NCBI RefSeq assembly: GCF_008369915.1
Contig: NZ_VSRN01000001.1
Location: 4,150,501-4,214,500 of the forward strand
DNA: 64,000 bases
Reading direction: 5' to 3'
From: Dyadobacter sp. UC 10
Lineage (GTDB): Bacteria; Bacteroidota; Bacteroidia; Cytophagales; Spirosomataceae
Part shown: in pieces, positions 11,874 to 24,655 of the stretch
How positions within the stretch are numbered: position 1 is the stretch's first letter
Layout: every line of letters starts with the position of its first letter
The notes under the pieces: model-generated
What the model saw: only the letters and a program-made list of their open reading frames with translations
The model's database searches: none
What the model was told of the DNA's origin: nothing
Made by a program: the position numbers and the translations under genes

Positions 11874-14857
<2,984 letters not shown>

Positions 14858-14861
<4 letters not shown>

Positions 14862-15883
14862 AAGAAAAGGTATTCATAACTGGCGCAAGCGGATTTATCG
14901 GATATCATCTGGTTAAGGAGGCGCTGGGCAAAGGTATGGAAGTAGATGCCGCCGTGCGACCAACCAGTAACCTGGCGTTTTTGAAAAAACTCATCCATGA
15001 ACCAGGGACCGGCCAATCAGCTGCGCTGAAAATTGTGAATGCAGATTTCGGTTCCCGTGAAAGTTTGAAAAACTTGCTGGAAGCCGGCCACTATACATAC
15101 ATTATTCATGCGGCAGGAGTAACAAAGGAAAAAACGGCAGCAGCTTATAATCTGGTTAATGCCGAGTATTCCCTCAACCTGGCGCAGGCTGCGATGTCAG
15201 CGGATATTCCGTTAAAAAGATTTGTTTTTCTGAGCAGTCTGGCCGCAATAGGGCCAATCAGCTACTCGGAACAGCAACCGATTACGGAAACTACGCTGCC
15301 CGGGCCAGTTACTGAATATGGTAAAAGCAAGCTGCTGGCAGAACAATATCTGGAAAAGGTCAGCGGATTGCCCTTAACTATTATAAGACCCACGGCGGTT
15401 TACGGACCGGGCGAAAAGGATCTGTTTGTTTTATTCAAAACCCTGGCAGGCGGCCTGGATGCTTACATTGGCGACAAACCGCAGCGACTGAGTTTTGTGT
15501 ATGTAAAAGACCTGGTAGCCGCTACCCTGGCCGCACTCACTGAAAATAAGAAAGACGTAACAGTGTACAACATTTCAGATGGAAATGCTTACGACCGTTA
15601 CGCATTGGCTGACAGGTTCAAAGAGATCAGCGGGAAAAACGTTTTTCGGACGCATCTGCCCATTATTCTGGTAAAATGGCTGGCAGGTTTACTGGACATC
15701 ATTTATTCCTTTTCCTCCAAAACACCTGTCTTAAACAGAGAGAAGCTAAAAGAGCTTACGGCTTCTAACTGGAACTGTAGTATAGACGCAGCCAGGAACA
15801 ATCTGGACTACCAGCCGCAATATGACCTGCGACAAGGACTTGCGGAAACATTAAGCTGGTACAAAGAGAATAAGTGGCTTTAA
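14858..15883 (+). CDS. NAD-dependent epimerase/dehydratase family, candidate ceramide reductase
   Basis: A 341-aa extended SDR. VFITGASGFIGYHLVKEAL is the NAD(P)-binding Rossmann start; EYGKSKLLAEQYL holds the catalytic Tyr and Lys; HAAGVTKEKT and RPTAVYGPGEKD are further family blocks. Most members act on nucleotide sugars, but position directly after spt and the GNAT gene matches CerR, the NAD-dependent epimerase-type reductase that reduces the 3-keto group in bacterial ceramide synthesis. Assignment to CerR is inferred from operon context. Its start overlaps the GNAT stop by 4 nt. Confidence 0.8.
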
Positions 15884-15994: not shown

Positions 15995-18565
15995 ATGAAA
16001 ACGATAATTAAGTCGGTATGGTTAAAAATTGCTCTGGTGGCCTGTATGGTACAGGTTATTTCAGGAGCGGCCATAGCGCAAAATACGACAACGATTAAAG
16101 GTACCGTTACCGACGCAAAAACAGGAGAAACCCTCCCGTTTGTGTCTATTTTGATCCCCGGAACCACCATGGGGACTGCTTCCGATGCAGATGGCCGCTA
16201 CGCACTGACTTTGCGTGAAGATCATGCAAAGATCCGGTTTACTTATGTAGGTTATCTGAGTGTTGACAAACCGATTACCGCCGGTATTTCGCAGGTCATC
16301 GATATTAAAATGTCGGTGGATGCATCGATGCTCAAAGAGGTAACTGTGAAAGGAAGAGGACGTTACCGTAACAAGGACAACCCGGCTGTGCAGCTGATCC
16401 GCGAGGTAATTGCGCATAAGGATGAAAACAAAATGGCTGGTAATGACTACGTGGAGTACGAGCAGTACGAAAAGATTTCGCTTGCGCTGAGTAACCTTTC
16501 TGACGATTTTAAAGATAAAAGGATCTTCAAGAACTACCAGTTTTTGTTCAAACAGCAGGATTCAGCGTCTATGGGCGGCAAGAATATGTTGCCGGCCTAT
16601 ATTCAGGAAAAGCTTTCCCAGGTGTATTTCCGTAAAAACCCGCATACTAAAAAGCAGCTGGTGCTCGCTAACCGTCGTGCGGAGTTTGATTCTAAATTCA
16701 TTGATAATGAGGGGTTAAGTTCCTATTTCAACAGGTTGTACGAGGATATTAATATCTACGATAACGATATTTCCATTGCGACCAACCTATTGCTGAGCCC
16801 GATCGCAAACACGGCACCTACATTCTATAAATTCTTTATCAGGGATACCATTAAAACCAATGAACCCTGGCTGATCGAAGTAGGTTTTGTGCCGAGAAAT
16901 AAAACCGATATGCTTTTCGAGGGTAAACTTTACGTGACTCTCGACGGGAAATATGGCGTGCAGAATGCATATCTGACTGTCAATAAAAGTATTAACCTCA
17001 ATTTCATGCGCGACCTAGAGGCGAGCCTTGAATTTGAGAAAAGCGCCGACGGCCGATATCATCCCTCCAAAACTACCCTGGCGATGGAATTTGCACTGGG
17101 TGAAAAAAGCGCCGGATTATATGGTCAGCGGGTTGTAAACTTTAAGAACTACACCATTAACGAGAGCCGGGCGGACAGTATCTACAAAGGCCCGAATGAA
17201 GAAATAGCCTACAACCCGGATGTAAAAATAGGGGAGTCCTTTTGGGGAAGTGCCCGGCATATTCCGCTTGAATCGATAGAACTGGACATTTACAAGAATA
17301 TAGATACCCTGCAAACGATCCCTTCGTTCCGGCGTACCATGGACATTGCGACGCTATTCCTGGCTGGTTACAAATCGTTTGGGAAAGTGGAGATCGGGCC
17401 GTTCAATACCTTTTACAGTTTCAATCCCGTGGAAGGTTTCAGGCTGCGGTTTGGTGGAAGAACGACACAGGAACTGAGCAAGCGCGTGTATTTCGAAACT
17501 TATGCGGCCTATGGTTTCAAGGACGAAAAATGGAAATATTTCGTAGCAGGTACCTATTCGATCAATAACAAATCGGTATATCATTTTCCGCTGAACTATA
17601 TCCGCGCGAGTTACCAGCGCGATACCAAGATCCCGGGACAGGAATTGCAGTTTGTGCAGGAAGATAACCTGCTGCTTTCCTTCAAGCGGGGCGACAATAA
17701 CCGGTGGTTATACAATGATATTTACAAACTCGAATATGTGAGGGAATTTGAGAACCACTTCTCTTATAAAATCGGCTTTAATCAATGGAGCCAGCGCGCG
17801 GCGGGAATTCTGAAATACCAGAGTCTCGACAGCGACGGAGCATTGAGCGACCAGGGTGTGCTGAACAATACCGAGGCGAATCTTGAACTGCGCTATGCGC
17901 CGCATGAGCAGTTTTACCAGGGGAAATTGTATCGCACGCCGATCATTAATCGCTACCCGGTATTTACTGTTCGCTATAATGCAGGTATCAAAGGCGTTTT
18001 CGCCGGACAAAACCGTTATCACAACCTTTCCGGAAATGTGGCTAAAAGGTTTTACCTGTCACAGTTTGGTTACGCCGATATAACGGCGGAAGGTGGTTAT
18101 ATTTTTGGTAAAAATGTGCTGTTCCCGCTGCTGACCATTCACCGCGCGAACCAATCCTACGCTTACCAGCTGAATTCATTCAACCTCATGAACTTCCTGG
18201 AATTTGTGAGTGATCATTACGCCAGTCTGGACGTACAGTATTATCTCAATGGATTTGTATTCAACAAAATACCCTTGCTTAAAAAGCTAAAACTGCGTGA
18301 GGTAGTGAGTTTTAAAGGCTTAATGGGAGGTTTGAGGGATGAAAACAATCCGGCATTGCATCCGTCGCTCTACCGGTTCCCGACCGACGAGCAGGGCAAA
18401 TCGATCAGCTATACTTTATCCCGCGCACCTTATATCGAAGGCAGCATCGGGGTTGCGAATATATTCAAGCTATTGCGCGTGGACCTGGTGAAAAGGTTTA
18501 CTTATCTCGACAACCCAACCGTTTCCGAGTGGGGGGTGAGAGCGCGGTTCAAACTTGATTTTTAA
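15995..18565 (+). CDS. outer membrane protein, carboxypeptidase-like regulatory domain plus DUF5686
   Basis: An 856-aa protein with a signal peptide (about 1-28), then a Carboxypeptidase-D-like beta-sandwich (IKGTVTDAKTGETLPFVSIL to about 110), then a long DUF5686 region predicted as a beta-barrel, ending in the aromatic-final pattern GVRARFKLDF. Proteins of this build are common in Bacteroidota; the function is unknown. Placed between the ceramide genes and the head-group genes, it could serve envelope lipid placement, but that is a guess from position. It is 111 nt downstream of the reductase gene and 24 nt upstream of the nucleotidyltransferase. Confidence 0.8.
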   Translation: MKTIIKSVWLKIALVACMVQVISGAAIAQNTTTIKGTVTDAKTGETLPFVSILIPGTTMGTASDADGRYALTLREDHAKIRFTYVGYLSVDKPITAGISQVIDIKMSVDASMLKEVTVKGRGRYRNKDNPAVQLIREVIAHKDENKMAGNDYVEYEQYEKISLALSNLSDDFKDKRIFKNYQFLFKQQDSASMGGKNMLPAYIQEKLSQVYFRKNPHTKKQLVLANRRAEFDSKFIDNEGLSSYFNRLYEDINIYDNDISIATNLLLSPIANTAPTFYKFFIRDTIKTNEPWLIEVGFVPRNKTDMLFEGKLYVTLDGKYGVQNAYLTVNKSINLNFMRDLEASLEFEKSADGRYHPSKTTLAMEFALGEKSAGLYGQRVVNFKNYTINESRADSIYKGPNEEIAYNPDVKIGESFWGSARHIPLESIELDIYKNIDTLQTIPSFRRTMDIATLFLAGYKSFGKVEIGPFNTFYSFNPVEGFRLRFGGRTTQELSKRVYFETYAAYGFKDEKWKYFVAGTYSINNKSVYHFPLNYIRASYQRDTKIPGQELQFVQEDNLLLSFKRGDNNRWLYNDIYKLEYVREFENHFSYKIGFNQWSQRAAGILKYQSLDSDGALSDQGVLNNTEANLELRYAPHEQFYQGKLYRTPIINRYPVFTVRYNAGIKGVFAGQNRYHNLSGNVAKRFYLSQFGYADITAEGGYIFGKNVLFPLLTIHRANQSYAYQLNSFNLMNFLEFVSDHYASLDVQYYLNGFVFNKIPLLKKLKLREVVSFKGLMGGLRDENNPALHPSLYRFPTDEQGKSISYTLSRAPYIEGSIGVANIFKLLRVDLVKRFTYLDNPTVSEWGVRARFKLDF

Positions 18566-18589: not shown

Positions 18590-19303
18590 ATGAAATATGC
18601 GATCATAGCAGCAGGAGAGGGTTCGCGCCTGGCAAAGGAGGGCTTTCAGCTTCCTAAGCCGATGGTTACCCTGTGCGGGGAAATGATGATCGACAGGCTG
18701 ATAGGCATTTTTATGCGAAACAGGGCAGAGCGGATATTGATCATAATCAATGAAAATTCCCCCGAGCTTGAAGCACATTTGACTGAGCTAAGCAAGACTT
18801 TGCCACTTGATATGCTGATTAAATCAACCCCCAGCTCGCTGCACAGCGCATTTGAACTTTTAAATCAATATCCTGAAACAGAGGCAGTTTGTCTTACTAC
18901 CACGGATACGGTTTTTAAAGAAGAAGAATTCGGTGCGTTCATTGATGCATTTGAAAACAATAGGGAGCTGGAAGGACAAATGGCGGTTACCGCATTCGTC
19001 GATGATGAAAGCCCGCTGTTTGTAAGTGCCGACACAAACGGAAAAATTACGGCATTTACGGATTCAAGAGAGCCGGCAACCGCATTCGTTTCAGGAGGTA
19101 TTTATTGTTTGCGTAAAAAAGCGATTGATACGCTGGGTAAGTCCGTCAAAAGCGGGACTTCGCGGATGCGGAATTTTCAGCGCGAGCTGCTTTCAGAAGG
19201 TATTGAATTACAGGCTTATCCATTTTCTAAAATTGTAGACGTGGACCATATCAGCGATATACAAACTGCTGAACTGTTTTTAAATCAGGAAAATCTGGTT
19301 TAA
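18590..19303 (+). CDS. sugar/polyol-phosphate nucleotidyltransferase
   Basis: A 237-aa NTP-transferase. The N-terminus KYAIIAAGEGSRLAKEGFQL followed by PKPMVTLCG is the GxGxRL...PKP nucleotide-binding signature; TTTDTVFKEEEF and IVDVDHISDIQTAE fill the places of the metal-binding Asp. It would transfer a nucleotide to a phosphorylated alcohol or sugar. Archaea join such a domain to a CDP-alcohol transferase to make CDP-inositol and its products; here the CDP-alcohol transferase is two genes downstream, so CDP-polyol formation is the favoured idea. The exact substrate cannot be read from sequence. Confidence 0.8.
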   Translation: MKYAIIAAGEGSRLAKEGFQLPKPMVTLCGEMMIDRLIGIFMRNRAERILIIINENSPELEAHLTELSKTLPLDMLIKSTPSSLHSAFELLNQYPETEAVCLTTTDTVFKEEEFGAFIDAFENNRELEGQMAVTAFVDDESPLFVSADTNGKITAFTDSREPATAFVSGGIYCLRKKAIDTLGKSVKSGTSRMRNFQRELLSEGIELQAYPFSKIVDVDHISDIQTAELFLNQENLV

Positions 19304-19360
19304 AAACGCATTACAAACTGACACCAATTATTTAAAGACCGGGGCGTTTTCCGGCAGCGT

Positions 19361-20230
19361 ATGAATGAAATTGAAATACTCGGCGTACACCGTAACAAAA
19401 AATTTTCACCGAATCACATTGGCAACGACGACGCGATTTTTTCGCTGACGGCCAAAGCACTTGAAAAATTGGGCTGCCGCGTCACGATCTGTTGTGAAGA
19501 TGATTTTTTGGCGATGCAGGAAGTGCGACAGTCAAAAATCTTTACAATGGCAAGGCAAAAAGAAGTGGTGGCGAAATTGCAAAAGCTCGAAAAGGAGGGA
19601 ATTCAGGTCGTTAACTCGGCATTTGGAATAGAAAAATGCTTTCGCACCAACCTGACCAATGCATTGAACGAAAACAATATCCCCGTCGCGGAAAGTTACA
19701 TTGTCCCGACCGGTTATCAGGAAGAAACAGTTTTTGACAACATTAAAGGCAAAGGTTACTGGATCAAGCGGGGTGATTTTCACGCGATCCACAAAGAGGA
19801 CGTTTCATTTGCCGCGTCGCGGGAAGAAGCCAAGGAGATTTTGCGCGAATATGCATTGCGCGATATTCCCGATGCAGTGATTTCCGAGCATTTGGTGGGC
19901 GATTTGGTGAAATTTTACGGCGTGCGCGGCACGGACTTTTTCTTTTGGTTTTATCCTTACGACAACAATCACCATAAATACACCCAATATCAGGAAGTCA
20001 ACGGCAGCTCGGCTTACTATGCTTTCGATGCCGGAAATTTGCAGCAAGTAGCAACCGACGCGGCCCTGGCAGTCGGGATCGATATTTATGGCGGGGATGC
20101 CATTGTAGGCAAAGACGGGCAGTTCCGCATTATCGACCTGAACGACTGGCCCAGCTTTGCACCCTGCCGCGACCAGGCAGCCGGACATATTGCAAACAGG
20201 ATATTCGAAGTATTTACAAACCATAATTAA
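19361..20230 (+). CDS. ATP-grasp protein resembling inositol-phosphate kinase (ITPK) / RimK
   Basis: A 289-aa protein. A Rossmann-like N-terminal part (MNEIEILGVHRNKKFSPNHI) precedes an ATP-grasp-like core: GYWIKRGDFHAI and DAVISEHLVGDLVKFYGV for nucleotide contact, then GIDIYGGDAIVGKDGQFRII followed by DLNDWPSFAPC, the metal-binding D...D-x-N segment. The last part looks like ITPK-type inositol phosphate kinases (pattern ...DxNxFPxY) and like RimK/glutathione synthase ligases. The substrate is unknown. Its stop overlaps the start of the CDP-alcohol transferase by 1 nt (TAATG), so the products probably act together. Confidence 0.65.
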   Translation: MNEIEILGVHRNKKFSPNHIGNDDAIFSLTAKALEKLGCRVTICCEDDFLAMQEVRQSKIFTMARQKEVVAKLQKLEKEGIQVVNSAFGIEKCFRTNLTNALNENNIPVAESYIVPTGYQEETVFDNIKGKGYWIKRGDFHAIHKEDVSFAASREEAKEILREYALRDIPDAVISEHLVGDLVKFYGVRGTDFFFWFYPYDNNHHKYTQYQEVNGSSAYYAFDAGNLQQVATDAALAVGIDIYGGDAIVGKDGQFRIIDLNDWPSFAPCRDQAAGHIANRIFEVFTNHN

Positions 20231-21201
20231 TGGCAACCACCACTACCGAAAAATCTGAAATAAAAGAGGAAACCAGCAATTCTGCTTTTCAAAACTCACT
20301 GAAATCACGGGATACCGAGGAGCAGCTGGACATTTGGTTTTACCGGCCGATTGGTTATCAGATCGCATTGTTTTGTGCCAAAGTGGGCATCCGTCCCAAC
20401 CCGGTCACAATCGTCAGTATTTTCTTCGGCGTCGCTGCTGGTATCCTTTTCTATTACCAGGAGCTGTGGATCAATGTGATAGGAATGCTTTTACTGGTTT
20501 TTGCTAATTCTCTCGATAGCGCCGACGGTCAGCTGGCCAGGATGACAAACGATAAGAGCCGGCTGGGAAGGATCTTAGACGGAGCAGCGGGCGATTTCTG
20601 GTTTATTGCAATTCACGTCGCATTGTGCCTTCGTGGTATTGATGAAGGCTGGTCGGGCTGGATCTGGGTTTGGGGAAGTTTGGCTGGCGCCTCGCACGTG
20701 GTACAGTCGGCGATGGCGGACTATTACCGGAATGTGCATTTGTTTTTTATCAAAGGAACCTCGGGTAGTGAGCTGGATAACAGCCGCGAGTTGCAAGCCG
20801 AATACGACAGACTTACCTGGACTTCGAATTTTGGGATGAAATTCGTGGCGCGGTTTTACCTGAATTATACCAAAATGCAGGAGCAGTTTTCGCCCAATCT
20901 GCAAAAGTTGCTCTGGCTGGTGAGGGACCGGTTTAAAAATGGTCTGCCTGAAAACCTGGTAACCGATTTCAGGGCGAAGAACAGGCCTTTGATGAAGTAT
21001 ACCAATATCGTTCAGTTCAACACACGCGTATTGTTCCTGTTTCTGTGGCTCTTTATCGACCAGTCGTGGATTTATTTCTTCTTCGATATGTTCGTTCTGA
21101 ACCCGATCCTGATTTATATGATTGTAAACCAGGAGAAAGTGAGCAAATATTTTTACGAAAAGCTTACGAACGGAAAAAATAATGAATACCAAAATATATA
21201 A
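20230..21201 (+). CDS. CDP-alcohol phosphatidyltransferase family membrane enzyme
   Basis: A 323-aa integral membrane protein that transfers a phospho-alcohol from a CDP-alcohol to an acceptor alcohol. The motif begins D96-SAD99-G-QLAR, then G, then D117. The canonical last Asp would be residue 121; here residue 121 is Gly and Asp122 follows (LDGAAGD), a one-residue shift. Several transmembrane helices flank it (for example VNIGM-like 75-95, WIYFFFDMFVLNPILIYMIV near the end). In this operon dihydroceramide would be a fitting acceptor and a CDP-polyol a fitting donor. It overlaps the next gene by 20 nt. Confidence 0.85.
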   Translation: MATTTTEKSEIKEETSNSAFQNSLKSRDTEEQLDIWFYRPIGYQIALFCAKVGIRPNPVTIVSIFFGVAAGILFYYQELWINVIGMLLLVFANSLDSADGQLARMTNDKSRLGRILDGAAGDFWFIAIHVALCLRGIDEGWSGWIWVWGSLAGASHVVQSAMADYYRNVHLFFIKGTSGSELDNSRELQAEYDRLTWTSNFGMKFVARFYLNYTKMQEQFSPNLQKLLWLVRDRFKNGLPENLVTDFRAKNRPLMKYTNIVQFNTRVLFLFLWLFIDQSWIYFFFDMFVLNPILIYMIVNQEKVSKYFYEKLTNGKNNEYQNI

Positions 21202-22201
21202 GGCACTTTTCCTGGCAATCGGCGTCATTTCTCTTGGCTATATGATCTATGGCACCGGAGTTGGCGTGATCTGGGAAAATATCCGGCTGACCGGCGTCTG
21301 GTTTATACCAGTGATAGGTAGCTGGCTGCTGATCTATATTTTGAATGCATTTGCGTTCCGGGCGATCATCCGCGAGCCCCGGCTGCCCGAAAGCAACCTG
21401 TCATTCTGGTCAGTTTTAAGACTTACTATTTCGGGCTATGCGATCAATTACATTACACCATTCGTCGCATTAGGCGGGGAACCTTACCGGATCCTCGAAC
21501 TGAAACCGGCGCTGGGGATGAAAAAAGCGACTTCTTCCGTGCTGCTTTACAGCATGATGCACATGTTTTCGCACGTGCTTTTCTGGCTGGCGAGCATTGT
21601 GCTGATCGTGGCCGTCGTTCCGTTGAGTGATGTAATGCTTGCGGGCTGCGGGATTTTGCTGGTGGTCGGTTTGATATTGGGATACTGGTTTATCAATGTA
21701 TATAAAAAGGGTTTTCTGGTCAGTACGTTCCGGGTACTTGAAAAGCTGCCTTTTGTAGGAAATAAGGCGCGTGAATTTGCGCTTAAAAATGCTGAAAACC
21801 TGTATGAGGTCGACGATCAGATCAGGATATTATATGCGCAGAGGCGCGGCGTTTTTTACGCTTCGCTGGTTTACGAATTCATAGCACGGGTAATAGGCTG
21901 TCTCGAAATCTACTTTACCGCCCACGCGATCGGCATGGAAATGACACTTTCGCAATCGCTGATCGTCAGCTCGGGTTCATCCCTTTTTGCCAACCTGATA
22001 TTTTTCTTCCCGATGCAGCTTGGCACGCGTGAAGGCGGGTTAATTCTCGCATTACGCAGTATAGGTCTTTCTGCCACGCCCGGACTTTTCATCGGTATCG
22101 TCATGCGGATCAGGGAGATCGTCTGGATTGTGATCGGGCTGGCATTGGTGAGCGGAAAAAAAGAGATGAAGGAGGAATTGGTGGAAAGTGTTAAGCTGTG
22201 A
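21182..22201 (+). CDS. UPF0104 / lysylphosphatidylglycerol synthase-type membrane protein
   Basis: A 339-aa polytopic membrane protein of the MprF-N/UPF0104 group (also AglD-like), with about eight hydrophobic segments. FVALGGEPYRILEL and FFFPMQLGTREGGLILAL are the conserved GGE-P and P-x-G-x-x-E motifs. Members act as lipid flippases or accompany lipid modification. It has no aminoacyl-transfer domain. Overlap by 20 nt with the CDP-alcohol transferase suggests it moves that enzyme's lipid product across the inner membrane; this is inference from context. Confidence 0.82.
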   Translation: MNTKIYKALFLAIGVISLGYMIYGTGVGVIWENIRLTGVWFIPVIGSWLLIYILNAFAFRAIIREPRLPESNLSFWSVLRLTISGYAINYITPFVALGGEPYRILELKPALGMKKATSSVLLYSMMHMFSHVLFWLASIVLIVAVVPLSDVMLAGCGILLVVGLILGYWFINVYKKGFLVSTFRVLEKLPFVGNKAREFALKNAENLYEVDDQIRILYAQRRGVFYASLVYEFIARVIGCLEIYFTAHAIGMEMTLSQSLIVSSGSSLFANLIFFFPMQLGTREGGLILALRSIGLSATPGLFIGIVMRIREIVWIVIGLALVSGKKEMKEELVESVKL

Positions 22202-22388
22202 GCTGTTGGCTATTAGCTGTTAGCCTTTTTTGGTGTAGGCTTTCTCGGTATATCGGATTTTGTAATGAAATAGAATTAAGACAGCTGGGCAAATAGACTA
22301 AGGCGCAAACGATATGGCACAAGGCCTAAGGCTTAAAGCCAACCGCCAACCGCTAATAGCCAAAAGCTAACAGCCAATAGCCAAAAGC
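22194..22388. repeat. intergenic array of AGCTATTAGC/GCCAATAGCC-type units in inverted orientation
   Basis: The left block 22194-22225 reads as repeats of AGCTGT(T)GGCTATTAGC and overlaps the stop of the upstream gene. The right block 22331-22388 contains AACCGCTAATAGCCAAAAGC and AACAGCCAATAGCCAAAAGC, close to the reverse complement of the left block. A shorter copy is at 1385-1406. The middle 105 nt shows nothing coding. It could fold as RNA or be a dispersed repeat. Confidence 0.7.
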
Positions 22389-22393
22389 AAAAA

Positions 22394-23104
22394 ATGATCA
22401 AAGGAATACTATTCGATTACGGTGGTACGATTGATACCAACGGCCTCCATTGGGCGCATGTTTTGTGGGAAGCTTACCAGCGTAACCACGTCAATGTGAG
22501 TAAGGATGCTTTCAGTGAAGCGTATAAATATGGAGAAAGGGCGCTTGCGATCAAGCCGCTTGTGCAGCCGCAACACGTTTTTTACGATGTGCTTTTTCTC
22601 AAACTGACTGAACAGTTTAGTTTTTTGAAACGAAATGGACATTCGGTCGACGATTCGGCTATTGAAGTTATTGCAAGGGAATGTAATGAGTTCGCACACA
22701 CCACTGTAACGAATGCAAAACAGGTTCTGGAAGAGCTGGCACTCGAATATCCGCTCGTGATGGTTTCCAATTTTTACGGAAACATCAATAATATCCTGGC
22801 TGATTTTGGCATCGCCGGTTGTTTTCAGAATGTGATCGAATCTGCCGTGGTAGGTGTCCGGAAACCCGATCCGCGGATTTATCAGCTTGGAATCGACGCG
22901 CTGGGTTTCCAACCCGGGGAATGTGTAGTGGTTGGAGATTCTTTTTCAAAGGATATCCAGCCTGCTCGACAGCTCGGCTGCCCGGCGGTCTGGCTGAATG
23001 TAGCTGGTTGGGAAGAAACCAGCCCGAAGTTGGCAACACCGGAAGGTGTGACCGAGATCACGGATTTTGCACACATTACGAAAGTTTTAAAGAGTTTGGG
23101 TTAG
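22394..23104 (+). CDS. HAD superfamily hydrolase
   Basis: A 236-aa HAD-IA protein. Motif I is LFDYGGTIDT with nucleophile Asp8; the second Asp of the phosphatase DxDxT motif is replaced by Gly. Motif II is the SNF of MVSNFYGN; motif III is VRKPDPRIY; motif IV is VVGDSFSKDIQPARQLG. A lost general acid would slow phosphatase activity or point to another reaction. Context suggests it acts on a phosphorylated head-group intermediate or lipid. It is preceded by the AGC repeat region, so it may start its own transcript. Confidence 0.82.
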   Translation: MIKGILFDYGGTIDTNGLHWAHVLWEAYQRNHVNVSKDAFSEAYKYGERALAIKPLVQPQHVFYDVLFLKLTEQFSFLKRNGHSVDDSAIEVIARECNEFAHTTVTNAKQVLEELALEYPLVMVSNFYGNINNILADFGIAGCFQNVIESAVVGVRKPDPRIYQLGIDALGFQPGECVVVGDSFSKDIQPARQLGCPAVWLNVAGWEETSPKLATPEGVTEITDFAHITKVLKSLG

Positions 23105-23159
23105 TTGTAAAACTTTTGTCAGGCACGAGAGCGACCTGATGAAATTAAATGAAATTATC

Positions 23160-24065
23160 ATGTACGACATATGTACGATCGGCCACATTACCCTCGATAA
23201 GGTAGTTACGACCCAGTCTGTCAACTACATGCCTGGTGGAACCTCGTTCTACTTTTCAAAGGCATTGCGGCAGTTTGATATCAATTATATGCTGGTGACG
23301 GCGCTTGCGGAGCAGGAAAGCCACATCCTGGCGGCTTTGCGGGAAGAAAATATAGAGATATTCTCTCATACAAGTCCTTACACCGTTTACTTCGAAAATA
23401 TTTACAGCGCCAACCAGGATCACCGCGAGCAGAATGTACTGCACAAAGCGGCGCCCTTTACGATGGGGCAAATGCCGGATATCAAAGCCCGCATTTTCCA
23501 CCTCGGCCCGTTGCTTTCCGATGATATTCAGATCGATCTGCTGAAAAGCCTGGCAGCGAAAGGAGAAGTTTCGCTGGATATTCAGGGTTATCTGAGATAT
23601 GTAAAAGATAAAAAGGTGTACTACACCGACTGGGCTGATAAAAAGGAAGCCTTGCCGTTTGTCTCTATTTTGAAAGCGAATGAATTCGAAATGGAAGTGG
23701 TAACCGGAACCAGCGACGTACGTGAAGGCGCCAAAATCCTGGCCGGCATGGGGGTGAAAGAAGTGATCATTACCCTGGGCAGCAAGGGCTCGCTGGTTTA
23801 CAAAGACGATCATTTTTATCAGATCCCGGCATATACCCCAACCGCTGTCATTGATGCGACCGGCTGCGGCGATACTTATATGGCGGGGTATTTGAGTAAA
23901 AAAGTGAGAGGGGCGGATGTGCAGGAAGCCGGGGAGTTCGGTGCGGCCATGGCAACCCTAAAAATTCAGTCCTCCGGGCCGTTTTCCGGAAACCAGGAGG
24001 CTGTTAATCATGTTGTTCTTCATGGCGAATGTGATCGCGAAATGATCGCCCAGGCCATTTATTGA
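23160..24065 (+). CDS. PfkB family sugar/polyol kinase
   Basis: A 301-aa ribokinase-fold kinase. MYDICTIGHITLDKVVT starts the fold, GGTSFYFSKALRQF is the substrate-side GG loop, and IDATGCGDTYMAGYLSK is the PfkB signature with the catalytic Asp in CGD (usually AGD). The plant myo-inositol 3-kinase belongs to the same family, and the GG-(T/A)-SF pattern here is compatible, but sequence alone cannot fix the substrate. ATG 23160 gives a family-like N-terminus; ATG 23139 would add seven residues. Together with the nucleotidyltransferase it would make and activate a polyol phosphate. Confidence 0.82.
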   Translation: MYDICTIGHITLDKVVTTQSVNYMPGGTSFYFSKALRQFDINYMLVTALAEQESHILAALREENIEIFSHTSPYTVYFENIYSANQDHREQNVLHKAAPFTMGQMPDIKARIFHLGPLLSDDIQIDLLKSLAAKGEVSLDIQGYLRYVKDKKVYYTDWADKKEALPFVSILKANEFEMEVVTGTSDVREGAKILAGMGVKEVIITLGSKGSLVYKDDHFYQIPAYTPTAVIDATGCGDTYMAGYLSKKVRGADVQEAGEFGAAMATLKIQSSGPFSGNQEAVNHVVLHGECDREMIAQAIY

Positions 24066-24079
24066 AACAAATATCAACG

Positions 24080-24655
24080 ATGAAATACGTGATGAAGCTG
24101 TTGATGGTCACAGTTGGCCTGATACTTTCTTCGTATTCAGGGACATACTCAACAGTTGAAGAGCCAAACAGCAAATTCACCGACCCAGACGAATTTCCTG
24201 TTCCCAGAAATGTCCCGGGCCTGCTGTTTTACATTCAGCGCGACCCGAACGAGAATACGATCTGCTACCAGCTTAACCTCGACAGGCAGGGGAAGTTAAG
24301 CACGAAGGATCCTGTCAATATGTTCTGGATACGCTACACCGACGGCGGTGTCCGGAGAGAGCTGAACTACATTCAGCGCAAGTTTGCCTACGGAATCAAT
24401 GTAAAGGAAAAGGGTGACTCGTCATACGAGCTGCGGTCTGTTGCTTACAATAAGCTGCCGCTGTCACTGCGGAAAGATCCCCGCAACGAATACCACGTTT
24501 ACACCCATATCAACAAAAAGGAATGTATTCTCAGCCGGGTTTTTATCCGCATCGACGGCGGTACTTTCTGGTCTCCGAATGTTGTTTTTATAGAATTGAA
24601 AGGTACTGAGATAGCAACGGGGAAGACCATAACACAGCGGATCAAACCTTCCTGA
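24080..24655 (+). CDS. DUF4833 exported protein
   Basis: A 191-aa protein with a signal peptide (MKYVMKLLMVTVGLILSS). The body shows FYIQRDPNENTICYQLN, MFWIRYTDGGVRRELNYIQR and HVYTHINKKECILSRVFIRI, which I recognise as DUF4833. The function is unknown. It is probably periplasmic or membrane-associated. ATG 24080 is chosen because it opens the signal peptide; a TTG at 24062 overlaps the kinase stop. Its place at the end of the head-group genes suggests a role with the final lipid. Confidence 0.75.
   Translation: MKYVMKLLMVTVGLILSSYSGTYSTVEEPNSKFTDPDEFPVPRNVPGLLFYIQRDPNENTICYQLNLDRQGKLSTKDPVNMFWIRYTDGGVRRELNYIQRKFAYGINVKEKGDSSYELRSVAYNKLPLSLRKDPRNEYHVYTHINKKECILSRVFIRIDGGTFWSPNVVFIELKGTEIATGKTITQRIKPS

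Follow-up and report, generated by a model that had tools for sequence, protein, structure and literature searches.

Heaver et al. (2022; PMC9246714) predicted that in B. vulgatus and Prevotella an NTP transferase, a CDP-alcohol transferase, and a HAD-family protein make CDP-inositol and phosphatidylinositol (PI) lipids, a route that they called unconfirmed. Their mass spectrometry showed phosphoinositol dihydroceramide in two species, B. vulgatus and P. veroralis, in which this alternative cluster is present and the BT genes are absent, and they cite ceramide phosphoryl-myo-inositol in Sphingobacterium spiritivorum. Dihydroceramide inositol was also found in a study of P. copri (PMC10865984), a sphingolipid study of Sphingobacterium detergens names inositol phosphoceramide only as a possible anionic species (PMC12724326), and a review cites the work of Heaver et al. 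(PMC12482443). Here we examine a block of seven genes at positions 18,590 to 24,655 of a 64,000-nucleotide stretch of DNA from Dyadobacter sp. UC 10 (contig NZ_VSRN01000001.1, positions 4,150,501 to 4,214,500), hereafter termed the window. The original prediction presented the block as an undescribed system, which must be corrected given the proposal of Heaver et al.: the conserved operon appears to be a kinase-fed variant of the predicted alternative inositol-sphingolipid route, lacking inositol-phosphate synthase (MIPS), and the core of this route has already been published for gut bacteria.

Our reading is that the block is probably an operon for the synthesis of ceramide phosphoinositol by a CDP-inositol (Kennedy-like) route that is fed by salvaged inositol. 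The neighboring ceramide genes would make dihydroceramide. The role of MIPS would be taken by the PfkB-family protein, which would phosphorylate free myo-inositol with, probably, ATP as the donor; the nucleotidyltransferase (NTase) would then join the inositol phosphate to CTP to yield CDP-inositol, and the CDP-alcohol phosphotransferase would move phosphoinositol onto dihydroceramide. The LPG-synthase-type membrane protein may translocate the lipid, and the DUF4833 and DUF5686 proteins may act on the finished lipid outside the cytoplasm. The ATP-grasp protein would most likely add a second phosphate to the inositol unit. We infer from the sequences the enzymatic activities, the order of the steps, the use of ceramide rather than diacylglycerol as acceptor, and the export roles.

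All seven reading frames are open where the original prediction placed them, closely spaced and on one strand. Pfam domain assignments are clear for six of the seven proteins, and the ATP-grasp protein is assigned by its modeled fold. The ceramide operon that was said to lie next door is indeed there: serine palmitoyltransferase (SPT) is followed by a GNAT-family protein and an SDR-type reductase, with 4-base overlaps at both junctions, and then by the DUF5686 gene and the module. The proposal of a CDP-activated polyol head-group module beside a ceramide operon is supported.

We searched a sample of 395 genomes spread over Bacteroidota for the ATP-grasp protein and found it in 15. NTase lies in the surrounding region in all 15, and the CDP-alcohol transferase, the LPG-synthase-type protein, the HAD protein, and MIPS in most. 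A scan of named genomes yielded at least 570 confirmed stretches, of which the best 80, many of them on truncated contigs, include 79 with NTase, 79 with the CDP-alcohol transferase, 71 with the HAD protein, and 49 with MIPS. The core of NTase, ATP-grasp protein, CDP-alcohol transferase, and HAD protein is conserved across Bacteroidota, often with MIPS nearby. Among full-length named loci (at least 20 kb), the whole gene set recurs in 14 of 14 from Dyadobacter, Runella, and Rhabdobacter, including PfkB, DUF4833, and the ceramide genes, and MIPS is present in none of them (0/14). Because the whole set recurs in these relatives and the core in distant families, the arrangement is not a product of chance.

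The full-length Sphingobacteriaceae loci other than Parapedobacter carry MIPS in nine of nine cases and PfkB in none; in the remaining, mainly Bacteroidales, loci the corresponding counts are 18 and 0 of 25. One locus of this last group (L137) is labeled Lachnospiraceae and may be a mislabeled metagenome-assembled genome (MAG). Of the 51 loci in this mainly Bacteroidales group, only one had a recognizable LPG-synthase-type gene, so that this gene is not a member of the universal core. Among the best 80 loci, PfkB and DUF4833 are restricted to close relatives and a single Parapedobacter. Conservation of gene order beyond close relatives, which had been set as the refutation test of the original prediction, holds for the core. 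Across Dyadobacter loci, MAGs included, the ATP-grasp proteins are 71 to 85% identical. Twelve named Sphingobacteriaceae loci besides Parapedobacter carry the module among the best 80, and S. spiritivorum is not one of them.

The locus of Parapedobacter luteus (L097) has the order SPT, GNAT, SDR, MIPS, DUF5686, NTase, ATP-grasp, CDP-alcohol transferase, LPG-synthase-type, HAD, PfkB, DUF4833, and the order in the window is the same minus MIPS, which stands between SDR and DUF5686 in P. luteus. This locus looks like an intermediate, and the simplest history would be that an operon with the kinase already in place lost MIPS. In a tree of the ATP-grasp proteins, the P. luteus sequence groups with those of Sphingobacteriaceae and the Dyadobacter group, at a weakly supported node (0.35).

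Because the core is conserved, often with MIPS nearby, the polyol is very probably inositol, as the original prediction had first guessed, and the genomic context for this assignment is strong. MIPS is present in all 13 ATP-grasp-positive genomes of the phylum sample that lie outside the family of the window, as grouped in the genome set used; NCBI places Dyadobacter and Runella in Spirosomataceae and Rhabdobacter in Cytophagaceae. In 10 of these 13 it falls inside the fetched region that surrounds the module, in one (G394) it is adjacent to a second portion of the module, and in two (G351 and G128) elsewhere; among the 380 genomes of the sample without the ATP-grasp gene, 49 have MIPS. The MIPS profile (PF01658) has no match in the genome to which the window belongs, which is 99.98% complete, and the same profile matches 6 of 14 control genomes. 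In a sample of 121 genomes of the family, the ATP-grasp gene is present in 21, and MIPS was not found in 15 of these. PfkB (E ≤ 1e-60), by comparison, is present in 21 of 21, always 3.6 to 3.9 kb from the ATP-grasp gene, start to start. Four genomes of the same genus as the window (G442, G455, G495, and G511) have a divergent MIPS-like gene (~85 bits) in addition to the kinase operon.

The best relative of the PfkB protein in the PDB is TM0415 of Thermotoga (5e-31; 28% identity over 268 aligned positions), which phosphorylates myo-inositol with pyrophosphate (PPi) and contacts inositol through D11, N78, Q141, and R145 (Nagata et al., PMC5931981). None of the four contacts is changed in any of the 17 aligned cluster kinases, that of the window included, and the motif D.QG..R is found in none of the nine other PfkB proteins of the genome. 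The five residues of the PPi signature (K171, F221, R229, R232, and M266) correspond to K, Y, A, C, and I in the window kinase. Because this signature is mostly lost, ATP is the likelier donor, and we rejected a PPi-dependent kinase on the basis of the four changed residues, although PPi would be released by the proposed next step. S89 of TM0415 is replaced by Gln in the window kinase, and the inositol phosphate produced by a TM0415 homologue with I76C and S89Q is reported not to have been Ins(1)P (PMC5931981).

Because no MIPS was found and the PfkB protein resembles TM0415 with its four inositol contacts kept, inositol would probably be salvaged rather than synthesized, in agreement with the earlier suggestion that the polyol is taken up. 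The exchange of MIPS for a kinase is well supported by co-occurrence and by these residues. A Dyadobacter species description scores myo-inositol as positive for two of the four strains in its table and mentions unidentified polar lipids (PMC12584681).

Two alternatives bear on this part of the pathway. The polyol could be something other than inositol, such as the phosphoglycerate of Caulobacter ceramide diphosphoglycerate; the CpgD nucleotidyltransferase acts in sphingolipid synthesis and makes CDP-glycerate (PMC12275187), and the missing MIPS would fit as well. We consider this very improbable in view of the presence of MIPS with the module in all 13 genomes outside the family, the inositol site retained by PfkB, and the occurrence of DUF4833 in BT-type inositol operons also. 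It is likewise unlikely, if less so, that PfkB serves inositol catabolism or acts on another sugar and lies in the operon by chance, with inositol phosphate coming from elsewhere, for example from phytate breakdown. PfkB enzymes often differ in substrate, some relatives have both MIPS and PfkB (see below), and the genome holds a phytase-family gene (L201, G000:C1:28989-29960; PF02333, 161 bits) that is a possible source of inositol phosphate. Against this stands its co-location with the ATP-grasp gene in 21 of 21 genomes at a near-constant distance. In G351, a similar PfkB kinase (51% identity) adjoins MIPS, away from the rest of the module (L179:8955-11415). Four further genomes, all from a single genus, have PfkB but no ATP-grasp gene, and in one of them, G249, no MIPS was found and other inositol-lipid chemistry is present, namely a BT_1523-type PIP synthase fused to DUF4833 and a match to the BT_1522-type synthase.

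Returning to the proposed CDP-inositol route, we compared the transferase and the HAD protein with their homologues aligned at E < 1e-25. The window transferase keeps the pattern D..DG..AR...G...D, in which the fourth Asp of the usual motif is Gly and is followed by Asp. Against the model for BT_1523-type PIP synthases (NF052561) it scores 22.6 bits, far below the cut-off of 350. The model for the BT_1522-type ceramide phosphoinositol synthase (NF052609) has no match in any of three ATP-grasp-type genomes (G000, which is that of the window, G190, and G238). The BT-type genomes served as positives, with matches in four of four at 313 to 332 bits, under the cut-off of 480, and none of the named control genomes was matched. 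These scores led us to reject the BT-type pathway for the genome under study. Because the BT_1522-type synthase is found in BT-type genomes and was not found in ATP-grasp-type genomes, the comparison suggests that the CDP-alcohol transferase itself acts on ceramide. The original prediction had also pointed to archaeal IPCT/DIPPS enzymes; these are distant relatives only, since the scores against NF041135 are 23.4 and 26.7 bits for a cut-off of 580 and the two functions are encoded by separate genes, and we rejected membership in that class.

Motif I of HAD phosphatases is defined by DxD. All 87 aligned HAD homologues have DxGGT, in which the second phosphatase Asp is missing, and motifs II to IV are kept in 86 or 87 of them. 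An ordinary phosphatase was therefore rejected, and the trimming of the lipid foreseen in the original prediction is not supported. A different role follows from the route of Heaver et al., in which the acceptor is diacylglycerol: the transferase would make PI-diacylglycerol, and the HAD protein would then move phosphoinositol to ceramide. The paper that proposes this scheme also reports a transferase–HAD fusion in P. veroralis (PMC9246714), and the scheme would be consistent with the presence of the HAD gene in 71 of the best 80 named loci, a number of which are truncated. The missing second Asp makes ordinary phosphoryl chemistry doubtful, however, and loci of the Dyadobacter group have the module directly inside the ceramide operon. 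For this locus we regard diacylglycerol as the acceptor as unlikely.

Several observations weigh against the reading of the block as a kinase-fed route to ceramide phosphoinositol. Six of the 21 module-bearing family members keep MIPS elsewhere, four of them in divergent form (~85 bits), which means that the kinase does not strictly replace MIPS, and neither MIPS nor PfkB lies within ~10 kb in 7 of the 25 full-length, mainly Bacteroidales loci. TM0415 has a high Km for inositol (12 mM), and the authors of that study consider that the natural acceptor may be another compound (PMC5931981). In 94 of the 97 transferase homologues aligned, Gly takes the place of the fourth Asp of the motif, with Asp (78) or Asn (18) as the next residue in the set. 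Heaver et al. located the B. vulgatus transferase by the pattern GX3DX3D (PMC9246714), and the window transferase does not fit the motif of that cluster, DX2DGX2AR...GX3DX3D, so the B. vulgatus genes may be another subtype. Finally, 12 of 20 regions around DUF4833 have no match to MIPS, the CDP-alcohol transferase, or PfkB within ~7.5 kb, and the link of this domain to inositol lipids thus holds for a subset.

The three transferases that do have the usual Asp (L068, L069, and L070) come from regions in which no ATP-grasp gene was seen. Two other loci (L161 and L162) are clusters of CDP-alcohol transferase, MIPS, and NTase with the usual fourth Asp, and neither an ATP-grasp nor a HAD gene was recognized in them.

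The ATP-grasp protein was named in the original gene set, correctly, and was given no role there. It has no Pfam match at 0.001. The AlphaFold2 model, built from an 18-row alignment, is confident, and because the 50 best-listed PDB matches of the model found by Foldseek are all ATP-grasp enzymes, we assign that fold. The top matches are D-Ala ligases and LysX/ArgX, and inositol-phosphate kinases of the ITPK kind appear at ranks 43 and 46; the modeled fold alone does not separate a kinase from a ligase. Searched against the PDB, the 18-row profile matches ITPK4 first (3.2e-6), then PsnB (3.2e-5), and then further ITPKs, such that six of the seven matches under 0.01 are ITPKs; an alpha-L-glutamate ligase scores 1.0. 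A 72-row profile gives PsnB, a graspetide ligase, at 1.3e-5, ITPK 1z2n at 1.8e-5, and ArgX at 0.014. IDxNxWPSF is invariant in the 72 sequences, as is D246...D259-x-N261; the D-x-N motif, which we take to be the metal site, is as in the aligned ITPKs, and PsnB has E-x-N. The sole NCBIfam matches of the window protein are weak and to glutamate-ligase models, and the Pfam family Ins134_P3_kin has no match in the window protein and weak matches in 2 of 18 relatives, the best at E 0.0048.

Judged from these comparisons, we lean toward a kinase, at roughly even odds, over a ligase, which we consider less likely. If it were instead a peptide or amide ligase, the head group might carry an amino acid or an acylated amino-inositol and not an extra phosphate. 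This alternative, which we hold to be possible though doubtful, would account for the ligases at the top of the Foldseek list, the narrow lead of PsnB in the larger profile, and the weak glutamate-ligase matches; the aminotransferase and Gfo/Idh oxidoreductase of a flavobacterial-type cluster (described next) could make amino-inositol. It is less easily squared with the ranking of ITPK4 and its relatives in the smaller profile, with the invariant D-x-N, or with the window module itself, which has neither an aminotransferase nor a Gfo/Idh gene and yet keeps the ATP-grasp gene.

The flavobacterial-type cluster (L064:3970-11402) has two ATP-grasp genes, as do L057, L058, and L065, and it also encodes a class-III aminotransferase, a Gfo/Idh/MocA oxidoreductase, and an MlaE-ABC-MlaD transporter. 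The composition of the L064 type suggests a modified inositol, possibly an amino-inositol lipid with its own transport system.

More speculatively, and with less confidence than in the choice of a kinase, the ATP-grasp protein may be a bacterial ITPK-type inositol-phosphate kinase that is a core enzyme of the route throughout Bacteroidota. In that event an inositol bisphosphate would be activated, the finished or intermediate lipid would be a phosphoinositide-like sphingolipid with an extra phosphate on the ring, the transferase that has lost its fourth Asp would be adapted to this substrate, and in the Dyadobacter lineage the head group would derive wholly from salvaged inositol.

DUF4833 is present in 28 of the 395 phylum-sample genomes and in none of 14 named controls. 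We took 20 further regions from the 30 listed matches. In seven of these (L181 to L187), DUF4833 lies 4.5 to 5.3 kb from MIPS, in the order SPT, GNAT, (SDR), MIPS, (PgpA in L187), GtrA, DUF5686, PIP synthase, DUF4833, fatty-acid hydroxylase, PAP2_3. This order was established by Pfam in L182 and L187 and by homology elsewhere, with a subset of genes scanned per locus; SPT and GNAT were not seen near the MIPS of L187. DUF4833 is fused to PIP synthase in G383 and G249 (L187:11050-12396 and L198:9724-11031), which ties the domain to inositol lipids, and the BT_1523-type PIP synthases that adjoin or are fused to DUF4833 exceed the NF052561 cut-off in four of four cases tested. The modeled DUF4833 structure (pLDDT 85.7) has no match to a solved fold at E ≤ 0.001 (best 0.024), and the trimming role gains nothing from it. 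DUF4833, a term that we did not find in the open-licence PubMed Central (PMC) literature searched, gains a first functional context in inositol sphingolipids.

Coordinates and identifying evidence for the module, the genes preceding it, and a repeat are collected below.

Table 1. Features of the ceramide and head-group genes in the window
Feature	Position	Strand	Evidence	Assignment or remark
Serine palmitoyltransferase (SPT)	12532..13743	+	NF047600 711 bits, cut-off 640 (NCBIfam, Bacteroidota type)	First ceramide-synthesis enzyme
GNAT-family protein	13740..14861	+	PF00583, weak	Travels with SPT
SDR/epimerase-type reductase	14858..15883	+	PF01370 2e-33	Travels with SPT
DUF5686 protein with carboxypeptidase-regulatory-like domain	15995..18565	+	PF18939 179 bits; PF13715 68 bits	
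Nucleotidyltransferase (NTase)	18590..19303	+	PF00483 4e-13; conserved AAGEGSRL...PKP region	Proposed inositol-phosphate cytidylyltransferase
ATP-grasp protein	19361..20230	+	AlphaFold2 mean pLDDT 90.9; profile matches to ITPKs and PsnB	Core member
CDP-alcohol phosphotransferase	20230..21201	+	PF01066 1e-10	Proposed phosphoinositol transfer to dihydroceramide
LPG_synthase_TM/UPF0104 membrane protein	21182..22201	+	PF03706 5e-25	Putative lipid translocase
Imperfect inverted repeat	22195-22388			Between LPG-synthase-type and HAD genes
HAD-family protein	22394..23104	+	PF00702 4e-19	DYGGT replaces DxDGT
PfkB-family kinase	23139..24065	+	PF00294 7e-28	Proposed ATP-dependent myo-inositol kinase
DUF4833 protein	24062..24655	+	PF16117 1e-52, 178 bits, cut-off 23.1	Apparently exported; proposed inositol-lipid accessory

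The GNAT protein is presumably a bacterial ceramide synthase and the SDR protein presumably a sphingolipid reductase. The DUF5686 protein is probably located in the outer membrane; homologues are present in both inositol-lipid cluster types, and it is likely the counterpart of the BT_1527 homologue that Heaver et al. noted near both. Two starts may lie downstream of those tabulated: PfkB homologues begin at an internal MYDIC or MYEIC, so that the true start is probably at ~23160, and for DUF4833 the in-frame ATG at 24080 is the likelier start. The arms of the inverted repeat are 27 to 30 nt long, 87 to 89% complementary, and 120 to 133 nt apart. The window has three copies of the motif; of 18 related loci checked, L072 has three copies and L083 one, and the remaining 16 have none. 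The repeat looks like a mobile intergenic element.

The terms ATP-grasp, PfkB, and Dyadobacter do not occur in the main text of Heaver et al. (PMC9246714). The B. vulgatus locus tags printed there would leave room for one gene between the NTP transferase and the transferase termed Ptrans. In the portions searched, ATP-grasp is mentioned in none of PMC12724326, PMC10865984, and PMC12482443, and PfkB in neither of the two searched for it. We found no open-licence PMC title or start of an abstract that deals with PfkB or ATP-grasp proteins as members of bacterial inositol-lipid clusters, and the kinase swap, the ATP-grasp core protein, and DUF4833 were not found discussed in the literature searched. 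The alternative inositol-lipid route is predicted and unproven in gut bacteria, and the Dyadobacter lineage offers a natural experiment on it, with an ATP-grasp enzyme added to the core. B. thetaiotaomicron unable to make inositol is not rescued by inositol in the medium (PMC9246714); possession of the kinase would account for the use of external inositol by other Bacteroidota.

Comparison with known systems places the locus as follows. As in Caulobacter, where CpgA-D are described as making a sphingolipid head group (PMC12275187), a cytidylyltransferase would supply a CDP-linked head group; the Caulobacter system, compared here by description and not by sequence, differs in its phosphoglycerate substrate and its ceramide kinase step. 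Among individual enzymes, the kinase shares with TM0415 the complete inositol site and differs from it in retaining only K171 of the PPi signature, and in S89Q. The ATP-grasp protein shares with ITPKs the fold, a first or second place among PDB profile matches, and a D-x-N of the IDxNxxPSF type, but overall similarity is low (E 3e-6 to 7e-3) and the larger profile matches PsnB equally well. With the BT-type cluster (BT_1522-BT_1526), the block has in common the proposed end product, phosphoinositol dihydroceramide, a DUF5686-type neighbor, and, in some BT-type versions, DUF4833, whereas the BT type uses MIPS, a CDP-diacylglycerol-dependent PIP synthase, a PgpA-type phosphatase, and an AUR1-like synthase. 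The alternative cluster of Heaver et al. is closest. It differs from the window in that the genome studied here yielded no MIPS match, adds PfkB and DUF4833, holds the ceramide genes in the same block, includes the ATP-grasp member, and has a transferase without the fourth Asp. Both combine an NTP transferase, a CDP-alcohol transferase, and a HAD protein with LPG-synthase-type and carboxypeptidase-regulatory neighbors, and both follow the same CDP-inositol logic.

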